A stretch of 64,000 bases of DNA. Source: Pseudomonadota bacterium (GTDB lineage: Bacteria > Pseudomonadota > Gammaproteobacteria > Xanthomonadales > Rhodanobacteraceae). A program made the position numbers and the translations under genes. The notes beneath the pieces are model-generated. The model was not told the origin of the DNA. It searched no databases and saw only the letters and a program-made list of their open reading frames with translations. The stretch is taken from NCBI GenBank assembly GCA_021827205.1, contig JAKAWV010000009.1, positions 1 through 64,000 on the forward strand, given 5' to 3'. Position 1 is the first letter of the stretch; every line of letters begins with the position of its first letter. This document shows, piece after piece, positions 4,761-55,142 of this stretch.

Positions 4761-5690
4761 ATGGTTTATGTCGGCCGTTTCGCGCCTTCGCCCACCGGCG
4801 CCCTGCATCTCGGCTCGCTGCTGGCGGCGCTGGGCAGTTGGCTGGATGCGCGTGCGGCCGGCGGATGCTGGCTGCTGCGCATCGAGGACATCGACCCGCC
4901 ACGCGCAGTCCGCGGCGCGGCGCGCGCGCAGTTGCAAACCCTGCGGCGATTCGGGCTGCTGCCCGATGCCGATCCCTGGCGGCAAAGCGCACGCGCGGCT
5001 GCTTACGCGGTTGCGCTGCGGCAACTGGCCGCTGCCGGTCACGCCTATCCCTGTGCCTGCACGCGCGCCGATCTGGAGGCGCACGGTGGCATCCATCCGC
5101 CGCGCTGCGTGCGTCCGGCGCGCGCGGATGGCGCGCACGCCTGGCGTCTGCGCGTGCCGCGCGGCGTGATCGCATTCGCAGATCGTCTGCAGGGACCACG
5201 GCAGCAGGACGTACACGCCGAGGTCGGCGACTTCGTGCTGCGCCGCGCCGACGGCCTGTGGGCCTACCAGCTCGCGGTGGTGGTGGATGACGCCGCGCAA
5301 GGCGTCAGCGACGTGGTGCGCGGCGCCGATCTGCTCGACTCCACGCCGCGGCAAATCATGCTGCAGCGCTTGCTGATGTTGCCCACGCCGCGTTATCTGC
5401 ATCTGCCGGTGGTCGTCGACACCGCGGGTCTGAAGCTGTCCAAAGCGCGCGGCTCCGCGGCGCTGCCATCCGACGCGCTGGACGCGCTGCGTCAGGCGCT
5501 GACGCTGCTGGGGCAACGCGAGTCGGCCGCGCGTCCCGCACGCAGCACCACGCACTTGCTGGAGCACGCGCTCACCCACTACCGCGCCGATCTGTTGCCG
5601 CGCAGCCGTGCGATTGCTGCGCCGCAATCCGCTGACGCGGGTGCCCCGCGTACACTCGCCGACGATCATTCCACGAGGAGCGCAACATGA
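4761..5690 (+). CDS. gluQ: Glutamyl-Q tRNA(Asp) synthetase
   Basis: A 309-aa truncated relative of glutamyl-tRNA synthetase lacking the anticodon-binding domain. It charges glutamate onto queuosine in tRNA-Asp. The ATG at 4761 is chosen because conserved sequence begins at once ([18 protein letters not shown]), containing the HIGH-like HLGS signature; the track start at 4695 adds 22 unsupported residues. A zinc site is visible as CACTR (about 97-101) plus the later PPRCV, and the class I KMSKS equivalent is LKLSK. The stop overlaps the next start as ATGA (5687-5690), so translation is coupled to the reductase downstream. Confidence 0.93.
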
Positions 5691-6427
5691 CTGCACGCAT
5701 TGCCCTGGTCACCGGCGGAACCGGCGGCATCGGGACCGCCATCGTGCAGCGTCTGGTGCGTGAAGGACACCGCGTCGCCACCAATTACCGCGACGCCGAC
5801 AAGGCCGAGGCGTGGCGCCAGAAAATGATCGCCGCCGGTTGTCCGGTGACCCTGGTACCCGGCGATGTCAGCAATCCCGAGACCGCCGCGGACATGGTGC
5901 GTGCGATCGAGAAGGCACTCGGCCATGTCGACATTCTGGTCAACAATGCCGGCATCACCCGCGACACCACTTTCCACAAGATGACCTACCAGCAGTGGAT
6001 GGACGTGGTGAACACCAATCTCAATGCGTGCTTCAACGTCACCCGCCCGGTGATCGAATCGATGCGCGAACGCAAGTGGGGGCGCATCGTGCAGATCAGC
6101 TCGATCAACGGCCAGAAGGGCCAGTATGGCCAGGCCAACTACGCCGCGGCCAAGGCCGGCATGCACGGCTTCACCATTTCGCTGGCGCAGGAAAACGCGC
6201 GCTTCGGCATCACCGTCAATACCGTATCGCCCGGCTACGTGGGCACCGACATGGTGATGGCCGTGCCCGAGGACGTGCGCGCCAAGATCGTCGCGCAGAT
6301 TCCGCTGGGACGCCTCGGCAAGCCGGAGGAAATCGCCTATGCGGTGAACTTCTTCCTCAGCGAGGAAGCCGCCTGGATCACCGGTGCCAACCTCGCCATC
6401 AACGGCGGCCACTACATGGGTTGGTAA
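5687..6427 (+). CDS. phbB: Acetoacetyl-CoA reductase (SDR family), copy 1
   Basis: A 246-aa short-chain dehydrogenase with the NADP-binding motif TGGTGGIG near the N terminus, NNAGITRD, the catalytic Ser in QISSING and the YAAAKAG catalytic Tyr/Lys pair. The pattern [19 protein letters not shown] is typical of PhbB/PhaB, which reduces acetoacetyl-CoA to (R)-3-hydroxybutyryl-CoA for polyhydroxyalkanoate synthesis. A second similar reductase lies at 7541-8287, with phaR between them. A FabG-like role cannot be excluded, but the phaR neighbour favours PHA metabolism. GAGGAG lies just ahead of the start. Confidence 0.88.
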
Positions 6428-6429
6428 TG

Positions 6430-6793
6430 CGCATGCCCTGAAGCTGCCAGTGGCAGCTTCAATGCGCGTTACCAGGTGAGGCATGGATGCCGAACGGGCC
6501 GCGTTCCAAGGACGGCTGCTTGCCCAACCCTCCGGGCCGCGCATGCGACATGCCATGAATGGCATGTCGCGCGGCGTTCACCAGGTGAGGCAGGATGCCG
6601 AACGGGCCGCGCCCCAGGGACGGCTGCTTGCACCACCCTCCGTGGACGCATGCCCTGAAGCTGCCAGTGGCAGCTTCAATGCGCGTTACCAGGTGAGGCA
6701 TGGATGCCGAACGGGCCGCGTTCCAAGGACGGCTGCTTGCCCAACCCTCCGGGCCGCGCATGCGACATGCCATGAATGGCATGTCGCGCGGCG
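6430..6793. repeat. Structured repeat cluster upstream of phaR
   Basis: Two direct copies of a 147-bp sequence (6430-6576 and 6647-6793, 217 bp apart, apparently identical by eye) flank a third, diverged copy of the core block (about 6578-6646). Each long copy contains two perfect hairpins: GAAGCTGCC-AGT-GGCAGCTTC (6440-6460 and 6657-6677) and GCGACATGCCA-TGAA-TGGCATGTCGC. The core block is recognisable by AGGTGAGGCA, GGATGCCGAACGGGCCGCG and GGCTGCTTGC. The cluster occupies almost the whole phbB-phaR intergenic region; short ORFs across it are repeat translations, not genes. Confidence 0.9.
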
Positions 6794-6892
6794 CTGCCGG
6801 GATAGAGGTTCGCTCGACAGGCATGGATTCGCGCGCATTGCTGCGCAGCATCGTAAGTGGTGCATCGCAAAACAATCTGCTAAGTTTGCCGC

Positions 6893-7465
6893 ATGGCAAC
6901 ATCCAATCGCATCATCAAGAAATACCCCAACCGGCGTCTGTACGACACCGAGATCTCCAGTTACATCACGCTGGAAGAGGTACGCCAGCTGGTACTCGAC
7001 GGCGAGATCTTCGAGGTGCGCGACGCCAAGACCAACGACGACCTCACGCGCAGCGTGCTCTTGCAGATCATCGCCGAACATGAGCAGCAGGGCGCGCCGA
7101 TGTTCTCGGTGCCGTTGCTGACGCAGATCATCCGCTTCTACGGCGATGCCCTGCAGGGCCTGATGGGGCCTTACCTCGAGCGCAGCATGCAGGTGTTCCT
7201 GGAACAGCAGCAGCAGTTCCGCAAACAGCTCACCAGCGTGGTCGGGCAAACGCCCTGGGCCATGCTCAACGATCTGACCACGCGCAACATGGACCTGTGG
7301 CAGAACCTGCAGCGCAGTCTGGTGGAAAGCGCCAACGCGCGCACCGCCGCCAAGCCGGCGCCCGATGGCAACGCCGCCGCCGGCAACAGCGGTGCGGGTC
7401 ACGCGCACGGCGGCGCCCCGCCGCGTCCGGTCGGCGCGAAGTCCGGCGGCAAATCCCCGCGCTGA
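6893..7465 (+). CDS. phaR: Polyhydroxyalkanoate synthesis repressor PhaR
   Basis: A 190-aa regulator. The N-terminal PHA/PHB accumulation regulator DNA-binding domain is clear (IIKKYPNRRLYDTEISSYI, about residues 6-24, then EEVRQLVLDGEIFEV). A second PHB-associated segment follows (about 70-125: FSVPLLTQIIRFYG, EQQQQFRKQL). The C-terminal tail is rich in Ala, Gly and Pro. In other bacteria PhaR binds PHA granules and represses phasin and its own gene. It sits between two acetoacetyl-CoA reductase genes; no PHA synthase (phaC) or phasin gene is in this window. The upstream region is filled with the structured repeat cluster. Confidence 0.93.
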   Translation: MATSNRIIKKYPNRRLYDTEISSYITLEEVRQLVLDGEIFEVRDAKTNDDLTRSVLLQIIAEHEQQGAPMFSVPLLTQIIRFYGDALQGLMGPYLERSMQVFLEQQQQFRKQLTSVVGQTPWAMLNDLTTRNMDLWQNLQRSLVESANARTAAKPAPDGNAAAGNSGAGHAHGGAPPRPVGAKSGGKSPR

Positions 7466-7540
7466 GTTTGTTCCTCCGTTTGATCTTTTCTCACCGCCCG
7501 CGCGGCGCGTGTGTGCCCGCGTCTTGTCCAGGAGTCAGCC

Positions 7541-8287
7541 ATGAGTGAACGCATCGCCATCGTCACCGGCGGTATCGGCGGCCTCGGCAGCGCCATCTGC
7601 CGCCAGTTGGCCCGCCAGGGCGCGCGCGTGATCGCCGCCGATCTGCCCAACCGCAGCGAGCGTCTGGCCGCCTTCCGTCAGGAAATGGCCGAGTTCGGCG
7701 AGCGCGTCTCTTTCAGCACGCTCGATGTCACCGATTTCGAGTCCTGCAAGCACCTCATCGCCGAAACCGAAGCCAGCCACGACCGCGTCGACATCCTGAT
7801 CAACGTCGCCGGCATCACCCGCGATGCCAGCCTGCGCAAGATGGAAAAAGCGCAGTGGGACCAGTTGATGGCGGTCAATCTGGACGGCATCTTCCACATG
7901 AGCCGCGCGGTGATCGAGGGCATGCTGGCGCGCGGTTTCGGACGCATCGTCAACATCAGCTCGGTCAACGGCCAGACCGGCCAGTTCGGGCAGACCAACT
8001 ACTCGGCGGCCAAGGCCGGCGTGCACGGCTTCAGCATGGCGCTGGCGCGCGAAGTCGCGGCCAAGGGCATCACCGTCAATACCGTGTCGCCGGGCTATTG
8101 TCAGACCGAGTTGGTGATGGCGGTACCGGAGGTCATCCGCGAAAAGATCGTCGCGCAGATCCCGGTCGGGCGCCTCGGCGCACCGGACGACATCGGCCGC
8201 GCCGTGGCGTTTCTGGCCGCCGATGACAATGGCTACATCACCGGCGCCAACCTGCCCGTGAACGGCGGCTATTTCATGAGTTTTTAA
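7541..8287 (+). CDS. phbB: Acetoacetyl-CoA reductase (SDR family), copy 2
   Basis: A 248-aa short-chain dehydrogenase. The ATG at 7541 is preceded by AGGAG at the right distance and opens on SERIAIVTGGIGGLG, the NADP-binding motif; the track start at 7511 adds ten residues. NVAGITRD, NISSVNG and YSAAKAG give the catalytic Asn/Ser/Tyr/Lys set, and GQTGQFGQTNYSAAKAGVHG closely parallels copy 1. It probably performs the same or a related 3-ketoacyl-CoA reduction in PHA metabolism. In one module with phaR and copy 1, it may serve a different chain length or growth condition; this is inference. Confidence 0.87.
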   Translation: MSERIAIVTGGIGGLGSAICRQLARQGARVIAADLPNRSERLAAFRQEMAEFGERVSFSTLDVTDFESCKHLIAETEASHDRVDILINVAGITRDASLRKMEKAQWDQLMAVNLDGIFHMSRAVIEGMLARGFGRIVNISSVNGQTGQFGQTNYSAAKAGVHGFSMALAREVAAKGITVNTVSPGYCQTELVMAVPEVIREKIVAQIPVGRLGAPDDIGRAVAFLAADDNGYITGANLPVNGGYFMSF

Positions 8288-19098: not shown

Positions 19099-19185
19099 GG
19101 CACAGACTCGCGGACGTTCATCGTCGCCTCGGCACATGCTGATCGCGCCACACGCACGCGCAGCCATCACCCATCGCCTGGCCGC

Positions 19186-19248
19186 CATGCCCGCGCAGGC
19201 GGGCATCCAGCGCATTGCGGATTCTGGATGCCCGCCTGCGCGGGCATG
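19186..19248. repeat. 25-bp perfect inverted repeat between argH and proB
   Basis: The arm at 19186-19210 (CATGCCCGCGCAGGCGGGC plus ATCCAG) is the exact reverse complement of the arm at 19224-19248, with a 13-bp spacer. Each arm contains its own small stem (CCCGC-GCAG-GCGGG). It belongs to the widespread short palindromic repeats of proteobacterial intergenic regions. In RNA it would form a very stable hairpin and may separate argH from proBA transcripts or protect the RNA end; no T tract follows. Confidence 0.85.
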
Positions 19249-19269
19249 ACGAGGGCGAAAGGTGCGGTT

Positions 19270-21838: not shown

Positions 21839-23158
21839 CTAGCTTTTCAGCGTCGCCGGTCGCGTGCGGCAGTGCTCGACGCAGGCCGCGATCGCCTCCC
21901 AGCCTTCGATGCCATACCAGAACGCGGTCCAGCGCGATTCCTTGAAACAGCCATCGGCCTCGGCGAAGTAAAACTCGTTGTTGACCGGATTGCCGTGGCG
22001 CGAGCGCCAGAACAGGCGCGGATTGTCGGCGCGCATCACCTGCCACGCGGCGCGGCCGAGGCCCTCGCCCTGCGCGTCCTCGGCCACCGCGAATTTGTCC
22101 AGATACGGCACGCCATTTTCCTGGGTGAGAATCAGCGCGGCGCGGTAGTTGGTGCTGAGGTAGGCGCGATACAGACGCGTGCGCTCGAAATAATCCGGCA
22201 GCAACTTGCGGCCGAAGCTGGATTCGATCAGCGCGCGCAGGCGCGGCGTATCGATCTGGCTCCAGCGCGTCACCCGGCGCACGCGCTCGCCGCGGCGCAC
22301 CAGCGTGCCCGAACCGCGATGCGTGAACAGCTCCTTGGCCAGCTCGGCGGGCTTGGTGATCGAAACCGAGGAAGTCAACGGCAGGCGATCCAGCAGTGCC
22401 TTGATCTGCTCGATCTTGACGCGCATGCCCGAGTGCAGCCACGGCTGCGCCATGAGGTTGGCGTAATCGGTGCCGAGGTTGATCGAGTCGATCACGTGCC
22501 CGCCATCGTCCAGCAGCCCGCCGGTGCCGGTGAGGAAAATGATCTTGTACGGCTGCAGCGCCTGCACCAGCTCGTTGGCGGCGAAATCGGCATTGACGTT
22601 GAGGATCTGCCCGCCCGCGGTTTCGCCCAGCGAGGCGATCACCGGAATCGACTCGGCGTTGAGGCTGGCCTCGATCGGCGCCAGGTTCACGCGCGTCACC
22701 TTGCCGACCAGACCATAGCTGCGGCGGCCAAGGAAATCGGACTCGAACACGCCGGACAGCACCGAGGTGGCGCGTGCGCCGAACTGCTGCAGTGCCTCGA
22801 CCAGGCGCAGGTTCTCGCCCTGCGTCACGCGGCGCACGATGGCCAGCGCTGCCGGCGAGGTCACGCGCAAACCCTTGACGGTTTTCTTGACGATGCCGGC
22901 GGCGCCCAGTTCGACATCGAGCTGCGGCCCGGCGCCGTGCACCACGATCGGGGTCAGCCCGACCTGCTGCAGAAACGCCAGCGAGCTGGTCAGTGCCTCG
23001 AGATCGTCGCGCAGCACCGCACCGCCGACCTTGACCACGGCGAAGCGCTTGGCGTCGAGCTGGCTGAAGCGCTTGAGGTACTGCTGGATCTCCTTGGCGC
23101 TGGCCATGTTCGAGAGCAGGCGCACGATGGTCTGGCGCAGATTCTTGTGCGCGTCCAT
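21839..23158 (-). CDS. argB: Bifunctional acetylglutamate kinase / N-acetylglutamate synthase
   Basis: A 439-aa fusion. Residues about 35-290 form an amino-acid kinase domain ([35 protein letters not shown]), and the C-terminal 140 residues form a GNAT-like acetyltransferase of the vertebrate NAGS type ([33 protein letters not shown]). In Xanthomonas this ArgB-ArgA type enzyme performs the first two steps of arginine synthesis, and the C-terminal domain explains why no separate argA is needed. Start at 23158, overlapping the argE stop (TGATG), so expression is coupled to argE. Confidence 0.92.
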
Positions 23159-24537
23159 CAGGCCAGTCCTCGCGCGATGATGCGCTGTACGTGGGCGGCA
23201 TAGGCCGCGAGCTGCTCCAGCGCCACCCATTCGTCGGCGCCGTGCGCCTGGGCGATGTCGCCGGGTCCGAACACGAAGCTGGTGTAACCGGCCTGCGAAA
23301 ACAGCGCGGCCTCGGTCCAGAAATCCACCGCGTTGCCCACCGGAAGATCCAGCTCGTCGGCGAGATCGCGCGCGGCCAGGCGTCGCGCCTCGGCGTCGGC
23401 GATATCGCCAGCCGGCAGCGGCGCGCCGCGGAAGGTTTCCTCGAACTGCGCCGGCGCCGGATCGGCCAGCGCGCGCAACTGCGCCAGGATCGCATCGCTA
23501 TCCATCGATGGCAGCGGGCGCAAGCCGAAGCGTAGCTCGGTGCTGGGCGCGATCACGTTGGCCTTGATGCCACCCTCGACGCGGCCGATGTTGAAGCGCA
23601 GCCCGGTGAGCCCGGCGAAGCGCTGATGGGCTTGCGTGTCTACCCAATCCAGCGCGCGCGATCCCCAGCGCAAGGCCTGATGCAGCGCGCTGCTGGATGC
23701 CTGTTGCACGCCCGCGGCGTGACCGGCCACGCCGGCGAAACGCAGCAGCACCGAGCTGATGCCGCGATGCGCCAGCACCACTTCGCCGCGCGTGGGCTCG
23801 GCCACGATGATTGCTGCAAAGCCCCTCTCCCGCCGGGAGATGGGTTGGGGTGAGGGTCGAGGTTGCTGTGCTGACGCGATGCCTTGAGTGGCATCGCGTG
23901 CAGCGACCGAGCAGGAGGTAGGATGCCGACTGGTGTCTGCTCCATGGATGGAAGCTTGCGGCGTCCCCGAACCCTCGCCCGCCCTGCGCGCATCCTTCGA
24001 CGAGCTCAGGACGGGCTCCTCTCCCGGTGGGCGGGGGGAACAAGCGCGCAGGAACGCGGGCACGCAGCGCGCATCGTTGGCTTCCTCATCGCTGCTGAAC
24101 AGGAACGCGCAGGCGCCGTCGCTGTGTGCCGCCGCGGCCAGCAGCGCCGCCGCAGCGCCCTTGATGTCGCAGGCGCCGAGGCCGATGGCGCGGTCGCCGG
24201 TCACGCGCAATGCAAATGGGCTGGCGCTCCACTGCGGCGAATCGGGCACGGTATCCAGATGCACGTTGAACAGCAGCCGCGGCGCGCCGCGCACCGCCAG
24301 CAGGCTGACCGCGCCGGCGCCATGGTCGGTCAGCGTGCAATCGAATCCTGGTAGTTGCGCCTGCAGGTAGGCGAAGATGCCGCCACCGTCGATCGCGCGC
24401 GGCGGATTGCGCGTGTCGAAAGCGACCAGGGCGCGCAGGTGACCGAGGGTCGCGGCGAGCAATGCCGGGACTCGGGACTCGGGACTCGGGACTCGGGAAG
24501 AGCCCCCTCCGTGCGCGGGTGTTTCTTGGTGGGTCAT
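23158..24537 (-). CDS. argE: N-acetylcitrulline/acetylornithine deacetylase with in-frame repeat insert
   Basis: A 459-aa M20 metallopeptidase-like deacetylase, longer than the roughly 360-380 aa usual for this family. Catalytic features are intact: [18 protein letters not shown], the EE pair in SSDEEAND and the C-terminal [16 protein letters not shown]. The extra length is a low-complexity stretch of about 74 residues after VPAFLRA ([20 protein letters not shown] to [11 protein letters not shown]), encoded by repeat elements. The N terminus (codons 13-25) is encoded by a heptamer array; start at 24537 has no clear ribosome binding site, and a TTG at 24462 is an alternative beyond the array. 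With argF' in the cluster the substrate is probably N-acetylcitrulline. Confidence 0.85.
23822..24042. repeat. Repeat element inserted in frame in argE
   Basis: About 220 bp of non-family sequence within argE. One end carries CTCTCCCGCCGGGAGATGGG and the other CTCCTCTCCCGGTGGGCGGG, typical of dispersed genomic repeats. The middle contains the palindrome ACGCGATGCC-TTGAGT-GGCATCGCGT (about 23875-23900), followed by AGGATGCCGA and, after 24 bases, GCTTGC. That order and spacing match the repeat units upstream of phaR. The insert keeps the reading frame open and has no stop in the argE frame. Confidence 0.8.
24466..24498. repeat. Heptamer tandem array CGGGACT in argE 5' end
   Basis: Four complete and one partial copy of CGGGACT in perfect tandem. 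If argE starts at 24537, the array lies in codons 13-25, between the start codon and the catalytic domain. A gain or loss of one 7-bp unit would shift the reading frame. Confidence 0.9.
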
Positions 24538-24609: not shown

Positions 24610-25869
24610 TCAGCCGAGTCCCGAGTCCCGAGTCCCGAGTCCCGATGTTGTCGAGCCCCGAGTCCCGGCTTTCCCCGCTTCCCGATTCACTTCCGCCCAC
24701 AGCGTGCTGCTCATGCCGTACAGGCGGATGAAACCTTCGGCTTCGGCCACGCCCCAGTCGGCCGACTGCGCGTAGGTGGCGCCCTTGGCGTTGAGCAGAT
24801 GCGGCGAGCGCACCGCCACCGCCTGCACGCTGCCACCGTGGGTTTCCAGCACGACCTCGCCGTTGACCATGCGCTGGCTGCTGGCCAAAAACGCTTCAAG
24901 ATCGGTCTTCAAGGGATCGTGGAAGAAGCCTTCGTAGACCAGCTCCACCCACTTGCGCGCGGCTTCGGGCTTGAAACGGTTTTGCGCCTTGCTCAGCACG
25001 GCCTCTTCCAGCGCGCGGTGCGCGGCCAGCAGCGCGGTCAGCCCCGGCGCCTCGAACACGATGCGGCCCTTGAGGCCGATGGTGGTGTCACCGGTGTACA
25101 TGCCACGGCCCACGCCATACGCCGCGAACAGCCTGTTGAGCCTGGCTAGCAGCGTGTGGCCAGGCATGACCTCGCCATCGAGCGCCACCGTTTCGCCATG
25201 GACGAAACGCAGCGTCGCGCGCAGCGGTCGCGGCGGCCATTCCGCGCGCGGCGCGCACCATCCGCGCGCTTCCGCGCCCGGCGCTTCCCAGCGGTCGATC
25301 TCGGCGCCGGACATGGTCAGGCCGAGCAGGTTCTCGTTGATGGTGTACTGCTTTTGTTTGGCGCGCACGGCGTAGCCGCGCTGCTCCAGATAGGCCTGCT
25401 CCCAAGCGCGCGTCTGCGTGTGCTCCTTCTGGATTTCACGAATCGGCGCCACGATGGTCAGATCGGACAGCGCCTTCACCGTCAGATCGAAGCGCACTTG
25501 ATCGTTGCCCATGCCGGTGCAGCCGTGCGCGATGGCGCGCGCGCCCAATTCCCGCGCGCGACGCAACGTCGCGGCGACAATCAGATAGCGATCGGATACC
25601 AGCAGCGGGTACTGACCTTGATAGCCTTCGCCGGCCCACACGAACGGCTTGACGAAGCCCTCCCATAGCGCCGGTCCACCGTCGATGGTGACGTGGCTGG
25701 CCACGCCCAGCTCCCGCGCGCGCGCCTCGATGGTGGCGCGCTCGGCGGCATCCACGCCGCCGGTATCGGCGAACACGGTATGCACCGCATAACCCTGCTC
25801 GCGCAGATACGGCACGCAGAAACTGGTGTCGAGGCCACCGGAGAAGGCGAGGACGATGTCTTGGCTCAT
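24610..25869 (-). CDS. argG: Argininosuccinate synthase
   Basis: A 419-aa ATP-dependent ligase joining citrulline and aspartate. The ATG at 25869 ([17 protein letters not shown]) is chosen because the P-loop motif SGGLDTS follows at once; the track start at 25914 adds 15 residues. The [14 protein letters not shown] and [14 protein letters not shown] regions are conserved. The last roughly 15 residues ([12 protein letters not shown]) are translated from a heptanucleotide repeat and are not expected in the family. The stop is inside that array, and argE follows after about 70 bp. Confidence 0.95.
24614..24645. repeat. Heptamer tandem array CCGAGTC at argG 3' end
   Basis: Four full copies plus CCGA. 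It is the reverse complement of the CGGGACT array in argE, 115 bp away, so the transcript could form a long imperfect hairpin spanning the argG-argE junction. It encodes the last residues of ArgG; length change here would only alter the tail. Confidence 0.9.
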
Positions 25870-30976: not shown

Positions 30977-31054
30977 ATCGTCATGCCCGCGCAGAGCCTG
31001 CCCCCACAGAACACCGGATCCCCGGTTCGCGCAAGCACGTCCGCGAATGACGAT
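30977..31054. repeat. Dispersed intergenic repeat, CGTCAT...CCCGCGCAGAGCCTG type
   Basis: Begins ATCGTCATGCCCGCGCAGAG and ends in ATGACGAT, the inverse of its first eight bases. It is one of at least four copies in this window (also 33234-33280, 46418-46552 and 55097-55142), always between genes. Confidence 0.75.
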
Positions 31055-33233: not shown

Positions 33234-33280
33234 TTCATCCCCCGCCTGCGCGGGGGCAGGCTCTGCGCGGGAATGACGAA
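33234..33280. repeat. Dispersed intergenic repeat copy
   Basis: TTCATCCCCCGCCTGCGCGG through GCGGGAATGACGAA: the reverse orientation of the repeat seen at 30977 and 55097. It lies between the two TMTC-like paralogs. Confidence 0.75.
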
Positions 33281-46305: not shown

Positions 46306-46816
46306 GACGATCCCCGGTGGCAGGCGCGGCGATGATACGCGATGACCGCCCGGATCGGCGCACGCAAGCGTCGCCGCCAGCCTGCGAACCGGTGCCGCGC
46401 GCGCGGACGGCGCTTGCCGTCATCCCCGCGCAGAGCCTGCCCCCGCGAAGGCAGGGTTGACTCGTCATCCCCGCGAAAGCGGGGCTCCAGTGACTTCAGC
46501 AAGCGCTGGATTCCCGCGCAGAGCCTGTCCCCGCGAAGGCGGGGGCGGGGATCGCCTCATCGGCAAAACGTGCACGTCATCGCACACGAGTGAGGCCCGT
46601 CTGCATCCCGGCTCGGCGCTGCGCGCCGTCCGGGATGACGAGTGACAAGACCACGCCGCCCATGGATGACGAATCAGGGCGTGATTCGCGTTGCATAAGG
46701 TGACGCGCATCATGCTTGCGCGGCGATCTTGGAAAAAGTCGGGGGTGCGGGATGCCCCAGTGGCCTGCGTTTTGCGGTAGATTCGCAGCAACGACGGGGG
46801 GTTAGACCGGATTCTT
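46306..46816. other. Intergenic region upstream of pilB with repeats
   Basis: About 510 bp without a supported gene. It holds the repeat cluster described separately. Downstream of this (46555-46816) no repeat or gene was recognised; the pilB promoter must lie here but is not evident. Short ORFs across the repeats translate to the spurious SPPAP/RGQALRGN type. Confidence 0.6.
46418..46552. repeat. Cluster of dispersed intergenic repeats
   Basis: Three partial to complete units in a row: CGTCATCCCCGCGCAGAGCC, CGTCATCCCCGCGAAAGCGG and GATTCCCGCGCAGAGCCTGT. They are the same family as those at 30977, 33234 and 55097. Confidence 0.8.
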
Positions 46817-54925: not shown

Positions 54926-55096
54926 GGATACGGGCTGGGTCAGGAAGGGAATCAGGGAATCGGACCACGGCGACGGCCGAAAGTGCCGCAGAGATGCCGG
55001 GAGCGGGTAATCGGTAACGGAAGTTGGGCGTTTGAAGTCGGTGTCGCAAGGCGAGCGATCCTGGCGCTGTCATTCCGAGCACGCCGCTCTTCTTGT

Positions 55097-55142
55097 CGTC
55101 ATTGCCGCGCAAAGCCTGCCCCCGCGAAGGCGCGGGCGGGGA
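55097..55142. repeat. Dispersed intergenic repeat copy
   Basis: CGTCATTGCCGCGCAAAGCC followed by CCCCCGCGAAGG: same family as 30977. It sits in the 291-bp gap between the RlmI-like gene and lgt, where no gene is supported; the ORF at 54555-55151 is an antisense/repeat shadow. Confidence 0.8.

Follow-up and report, generated by a model that had tools for sequence, protein, structure and literature searches.

The gap between a phbB-like gene and a phaR-like gene in a Rhodanobacteraceae genome is filled with repeated hairpins, and this raises the question of what these repeats are, how they came to lie there and what they might do in the transcripts that carry them. The window, by which we mean the whole stretch of 64,000 nucleotides that was analysed, had been described in a first-pass annotation as carrying two 147-bp direct copies and a diverged third core in this gap. 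A repeat search of the window recovered the two direct copies, which are fully identical (100%), at 6430-6576 and 6647-6793; the third core is also real, as a 50-nt core occurs three times (6485, 6593 and 6702), the middle one at 90%. A fourth unit, of which only half is present, lies at 6753-6792 and had been missed. The gap thus holds units in tandem.

Each unit is about 92-95 nt long and contains, from 5' to 3', a GGT junction and three hairpins, H1, H2 and H3. H1 is long and differs in sequence at each site; its outer stem measures about 11 bp and is followed by a small bulge on the 5' side, often cTTG, and by an inner stem that closes as TGCC-loop-GGCA. The short hairpins H2 and H3 have covarying stems of only 3-4 bp and A(N)GGA(N) loops; H2 has the form (GT/AC, AG/CT, GG/CC or GC/GC)-(GA/GA)-GGC-A(N)GGA(N)-GCC and H3 the form NCC-ANGGAN-GGN'. 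The features of the gap are as follows.

5687 to 6427, + strand: phbB-like acetoacetyl-CoA reductase of 246 aa, the host gene (open reading frame list; short-chain reductase sequence, name inferred)
6419 to 6518, + strand: unit 1, complete (covariance model match of 63.3 bits, E 1.8e-12; within the exact 147-bp repeat)
6422 to 6474, + strand: H1 of unit 1 (RNA fold)
6476 to 6495, + strand: H2 of unit 1, GT-(GA)-GGC-ATGGAT-GCC-(GA)-AC, with the first A(N)GGA loop (alignment and pair counts)
6505 to 6516, + strand: H3 of unit 1, CC-AAGGAC-GG, with the second A(N)GGA loop (alignment and pair counts)
6534 to 6626, + strand: unit 2, complete, with its H1 inner hairpin at 6545-6570 (model match of 74.6 bits, E 3.9e-15)
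6641 to 6735, + strand: unit 3, complete, a copy of unit 1 (model match of 53.8 bits, E 3.2e-10; exact repeat)
6753 to 6792, + strand: unit 4, half, H1 only (model match of 31 bits, model positions 11-50)
6837 to 6895, + strand: conserved region, inferred to be the phaR promoter, with the palindrome TGCTGCGCAGCA and then TAAGTGG...CTAAGTTTGCCGCATG (13 genus members compared)
6893 to 7465, + strand: phaR-like gene of 190 aa (open reading frame list; a single match in each of 13 genus members)

The first-pass annotation had paired a perfect hairpin, GCGACATGCCAT/ATGGCATGTCGC, with a conserved block in each copy. This hairpin is indeed perfect at 6545-6570 and 6762-6787, but H1 is longer than was described; in unit 1 it comprises an outer stem TGGTAATGCGCAT/ATGCGCGTTACCA (6422-6434 with 6462-6474), a 5' bulge GCCC, an inner stem (6439-6448 with 6452-6461) and the loop AGT. 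The GGT junction of this unit is 6423-6425, and the outer pair of its H3 is broken (T-C). A second hairpin, GAAGCTGCC-AGT-GGCAGCTTC, is likewise perfect at 6440-6460 and 6657-6677, but it is not a separate element linked to the long copies, as had been proposed: the two hairpins are two versions of H1 that alternate between successive units. The conserved block resolves into the two small hairpins H2 and H3. The GCTTGC motif noted in that block is found, as TGCTTGC after H3, in about half of the copies, including the units of the window, but is mostly missing from those linked to tRNA genes.

A covariance model was built on 32 diverse units, and matches were counted at E <= 0.001. Changes on both sides were found in 20 of 27 pairs, and 90.3% of cells were paired, compared with 70.1% after shuffling and at most 38% after sliding. 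In a second set of 45 copies from genomes, which is biased toward the model because the copies were found with it, 23 of 27 pairs covary and 90.8% are paired. The H2 stems of this set are GGC/GCC (29) or GCC/GGC (9), and those of H3 are GCC/GGC (12), ACC/GGT (9), TTC/GAA (3), TCC/GGA (2) and GAC/GTC (2); despite these compensatory changes, the loops ANGGAN/AGGAN are retained in most of the 45 matches. The closing pairs of H2, which no search pattern constrained, are GT/AC in 10 of the 32 units, AG/CT in 5, GG/CC in 5 and GC/GC in 4, and in 39 of 54 units the two bases of the outer H3 pair match, where 18.7 would be expected under independence. The distance from GGA to GGA is 24-26 nt in all 54. 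Within H1, one given pair varies as T-A, C-G and T.G among G005, G007 and our own genome, G000. In H1, 35 G.U pairs stand against 16 A.C mismatches, suggesting that the + strand is likely the folded one. Near-perfect long hairpins can also be maintained by template-switch correction in DNA, so that H2 and H3 weigh more for function than H1. The four full units in the window gave E values from 3e-20 to 3e-10 in 467 kb, far beyond chance; two of them were in the training set of the model, and evidence independent of the window units comes from the covariation in the second set and from a reversed control pattern, which had no match in any of 399 genomes of the order. That the units form a structured dispersed family is, in our judgement, virtually certain.

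The array had been read as lying upstream of phaR. It does occupy the phbB-phaR gap, but it is better seen as the 3' end of phbB, because the phbB stop codon (6425-6427) falls within H1 of unit 1 and the array precedes the conserved region in front of phaR. This region is kept in genus members both with and without units, a promoter or operator role for it is inferred, and its TGCTGCGCAGCA palindrome presumably resembles a PhaR operator. From the sequence, the array most likely belongs to the phbB 3' region, upstream of a separate phaR promoter. A sequence scan of 6421-6900 met nowhere with four T in succession, and thus there is no intrinsic, classical terminator in this stretch. Among the genus members, nine carry units in this gap and four others lack them there, as judged by DNA similarity and a phaR search. 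A plausible history is that the GGT at the end of phbB received a unit, after which the array would have grown through tandem duplication of a 217-bp block of two units. Two phbB-like reductase genes (5687-6427 and 7511-8287) flank phaR, and their DNA is about 71-76% identical over long stretches.

The first-pass annotation had suggested a covariance-model search of the genome and its relatives, and held that the family would be refuted if no further copies and no stem covariation were found. Neither was the case: the search returned 11 copies in G000, and 39 of 120 relatives had matches. Copy number ranges from 15 to 29 in some genomes (G036 15, G007 17, G369 18, G004 19, G295 20 and G394 29), while further genomes of the same family lack units. 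When 84,980 species genomes were scanned with an exact pattern, 42 stretches came up, all from Lysobacterales (Rhodanobacteraceae, Dokdonella, Rudaea, Mizugakiibacter, Rehaibacterium and Lysobacter) or from genomes classified only to phylum or class. Within the order, the strict pattern occurred in 16 of 399 genomes and a looser one in 20, a few of which did not hold true units. Within the scans made, the dispersed family is limited to Lysobacterales. It had not been recognised as a named family, in agreement with the absence of any Rfam match above the gathering threshold in the window; only sub-threshold, chance-like matches were seen otherwise, nor was a Lysobacterales repeat of like kind described in the literature searched, which comprised openly licensed papers only.

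Many copies adjoin tRNA genes. The site at the end of phbB is occupied in the genus of the window, at locus L097 and in G232 and G360, and a site at the end of efpL is occupied in G036, G369, G232, G388, G013, G004 and G009. A copy within argE, also claimed before, was confirmed by a model match.

23855 to 23954, + strand: unit in argE, complete, the top match of the window (model 96.3 bits, E 3.1e-20), antisense to argE
23158 to 24537, - strand: argE/dapE-like deacetylase open reading frame of 459 aa (open reading frame list; name inferred)

This reading frame stays open across the unit and the adjoining repeats. The composite insert (23818-24050) consists of the unit and, beside it, one repeat of the CCCTCTCCCGCCGGGAG type and one of the CTTCGACGAGCTCAGGACGG type. 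Near the start of argE, CGGGACT tandem repeats at 24466-24496 and 24614-24644 face each other as perfect 31-bp inverted arms. Another dispersed palindromic repeat of the window, TCGTCATTCCCGCGCAGAGCCTGCCCCCGCGAAGGCGGGG (19183-19251, 30978-31005, 33239-33279, 46418-46456, 46510-46545 and 55096-55136), resembles the known CGTC-tagged REP type. Elsewhere in G000, two paralogous genes (L310 on contig C13 and L311 on C32) each carry a unit at the same position, and their reading frame is disturbed; we take them to be integron-integrase-type tyrosine recombinases from the motif HTLRHSFATHL..DIRTV.ELLG, without a family search. A further unit (L312, C37:55758-55860) lies between the end of a tuf-like gene, whose stop codon is at the base of H1, and tRNA-Trp; a clear GGT junction is missing there.

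The junctions indicate how the units arrived. In nearly all cases the unit starts directly 3' of GGT, and the junction reads GGT|CGA or GGT followed by other bases. The tRNA sites show one orientation throughout: the 5' part of the tRNA up to the GGT of the D-loop, the unit, a short leader and then the intact tRNA. The duplicated target, counted from the H3 3' arm up to where the duplication stops and read by eye, is usually 43-48 bp long (43 nt at L075, 44 at L316, 45 at L098 and L321, 46 at L324 and 48 at L105), with longer cases of 54 nt at L100 and about 98 at L081, an anticodon-side insertion. The typical target is the tRNA 5' end up to the D-loop and sometimes a gene start such as that of pgk; at L313 in our own genome, the start of a phosphoglycerate-kinase-like gene is present on both sides of the unit, and at L319 in G369 a coding stretch of about 40 bp is duplicated. 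Ten of about 41 tested copies exceeded the 99th percentile of random flank pairs, where about 0.4 would be expected; for about three quarters of those tested, no significant target duplication was detected by this comparison, perhaps reflecting decay. A GGT left junction is nearly general, and target duplications are present at a subset of sites. The presence of the target before and after the unit implies insertion, and through the duplication essential tRNAs and genes would remain intact downstream. The protein end is also preserved at efpL, which without a unit mostly ends GGC CGC GCC TGA and with a unit in most cases GGT CGA GC(C/T) TGA. Where units are inserted at tRNAs, it is the duplicated target that supplies the 3' arm of H3, and this arm nevertheless pairs with the NCC of the unit; between close relatives among the units, N and N' change together. 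Either targets are picked by pairing or pairing is soon restored afterwards. In G035 (L031/L043, C1:2120322-2120981), a 202-bp tandem array of at least four copies contains a diverged unit and a purA-like gene start, and it is an amplified duplication of the tRNA type.

Selection on structure or a mobile element had been offered as explanations, and both halves hold, given the covarying stems, the copies in relatives and the target duplications. We consider it likely, with mobility as an inference, that the unit is a small non-autonomous mobile element of Lysobacterales. The strongest alternative is that the units are an old cis-acting RNA that is not mobile now, RsmA-binding or RNA-stabilising, kept by selection at fixed places (the 3' ends of phbB and efpL and the tRNA-His and tRNA-Ser leaders), having spread vertically as well as by horizontal transfer. 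The phbB and efpL ends are indeed filled in several genera of two families, the stop codon lies within H1 at both, and the H1 of G012 and G009 is unlike that of G000 and still pairs with TGGTRA. Against it stand copies inside genes and antisense to them (argE and hutF), those in both integron-integrase-type genes of G000, the target duplications at new sites and the uneven copy numbers within one family, and we regard it as unlikely.

If the element moves, the enzyme that moves it has to be sought. Two proposals fare equally, and both appear improbable to us. The first makes the unit a REP or IS200/IS605-like element that travels as single-stranded DNA, mobilised by a Y1 transposase through recognition of the hairpin and a short GGT tag. 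Like REP elements with RAYT transposases, the units are small dispersed hairpins, non-coding and sometimes within genes, with a short 5' tag by an imperfect, bulged hairpin and a one-strand choice of target site. However, the tag is GGT rather than GTAG/GGAG or CGTC, and the units differ from REP in having three hairpins, about 95 nt, 1-29 copies and target duplications, the last at many sites, whereas IS200/IS605 transposition makes none. No covariance-model match lay within 1.5 kb of 30 Y1 loci, so no Y1 gene among these is flanked by units, and no Y1 match was found in G004 (19 copies) or G007 (17 copies), both of them incomplete genomes. The second proposal is a SINE-like retroelement, in which the unit RNA would be turned into DNA at the 3' end of a nicked GGT. 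This would suit the structured RNA, the tRNA targets and the long, variable target duplications that end at one defined strand position, but no reverse transcriptase (PF00078) was found in G000, which is 99% complete, and none is listed for the copy-rich G036, G369, G394 and G295. A mobiliser encoded as a recurrent neighbour was not seen either, since the clusters of open reading frames within 3 kb of 42 loci contained only the host genes of shared sites. The units also recall MITEs and rickettsial palindromic elements, which are non-coding, non-autonomous and dispersed and some of whose insertions keep a reading frame open, but the ends of the six units inspected show no terminal inverted repeats spanning the unit, and the usual target duplication is 43-48 bp rather than a few bp. 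Finally, chromosomal integrons are common in Lysobacterales, and an attC site or relic would match the variable sequence, the conserved fold and the frequent position right after a stop codon, but it is hardly credible and was rejected because none of the 32 units has the RYYYAAC ... GTTRRRY core sites and the units are flanked by housekeeping genes rather than by cassettes.

What the small non-autonomous element might contribute to its hosts is suggested by its loops. RsmA/CsrA sites have at their core a hairpin loop with CA(N)GGA(N)G, and the A(N)GGA loops of H2 and H3, 24-26 nt apart, have the sequence signature of paired sites. A published consensus for such sites is ACARGGAUG (PMC3937308). 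Two loops at a fixed spacing, stems free to vary while the loops are held, and the presence of csrA (at G000:C22:90192 and in 36 of 41 genomes searched, our own included) resemble a site for an RsmA dimer. A(N)GGA hairpins with stems of at least 5 bp were not clearly enriched in 400 kb of our own genome, which counts against the reading, as do the H2 and H3 stems of only 3-4 bp; it also ties the signature to the repeat family rather than to a general habit of the genome. Without binding data, whether the RNA of the unit binds RsmA/CsrA is inferred from sequence alone, and we judge the chances to be even. The copies in argE and hutF run antisense to the genes that hold them, which means that some copies cannot act in host mRNA. 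A real effect on phb expression, for which there are no transcription data, seems unlikely to us. The units are like RsmX/Y/Z, CsrB-type RNAs and the RsmA/CsrA sites of mRNAs in having short, variable-stemmed hairpins that carry C-A(N)GGA(N)-G loops, and like these RNAs they have more than one site in bacteria that encode csrA. Unlike RsmX/Y/Z and CsrB-type RNAs, they have only two sites and sit in a dispersed repeat within other transcripts; a sponge sRNA of the CsrB/RsmZ type would be free-standing, with its own promoter and intrinsic terminator, neither of which has been identified for the units. They have no Rfam match, and binding is only predicted.

The architecture of the unit, its covariation and its dispersal across the order are observed. 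On this basis, the explanation that we favour, with some but not strong confidence, is that the array represents repeated copies of a small mobile element of Lysobacterales that is non-autonomous and inserts 3' of GGT, and whose RNA carries RsmA sites. A single strand of the element would fold into H1-H2-H3, and a trans-acting enzyme would insert copies 3' of GGT and duplicate usually 43-48 bp of the target. In RNA, H2 and H3 would each present a CA(N)GGA(N)G loop, and the pair would bind one RsmA/CsrA dimer. Each insertion would then put an RsmA site into a transcript, either in a 3' UTR or in a tRNA precursor, and may alter the stability of that transcript or titrate RsmA. It is only a tentative idea, and one we lean against, that the units represent a hitherto undescribed class of small, mobile, RNA-like elements with an unknown enzyme, GGT insertion and a duplication of about 45 bp, which spreads twin RsmA/CsrA sites across the transcriptome and rewires or buffers the RsmA regulon.

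The covariance model can be used now to annotate the family. Insertions in tRNA D-loops, in which the tRNA 5' end is duplicated although no enzyme has been recognised, raise the question of how such small elements move. On the tentative idea just given, the pairing of the target-derived H3 3' arm with the unit would mean that target pairing is part of the insertion mechanism. To our knowledge, CsrB-type sponges are hard to find in Lysobacterales. In Azotobacter, RsmA binds the phbBAC and phbR mRNAs and directly represses both (PMC7204398), and a Xanthomonas study noted that no rsmB homologs had been identified in Xanthomonas genomes (PMC3937308); a candidate site linked to phb in this order is therefore directly testable. 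If the units do bind RsmA, a mobile repeat would be distributing the sites of a global post-transcriptional regulator, and the reach of that regulator could change by insertion.
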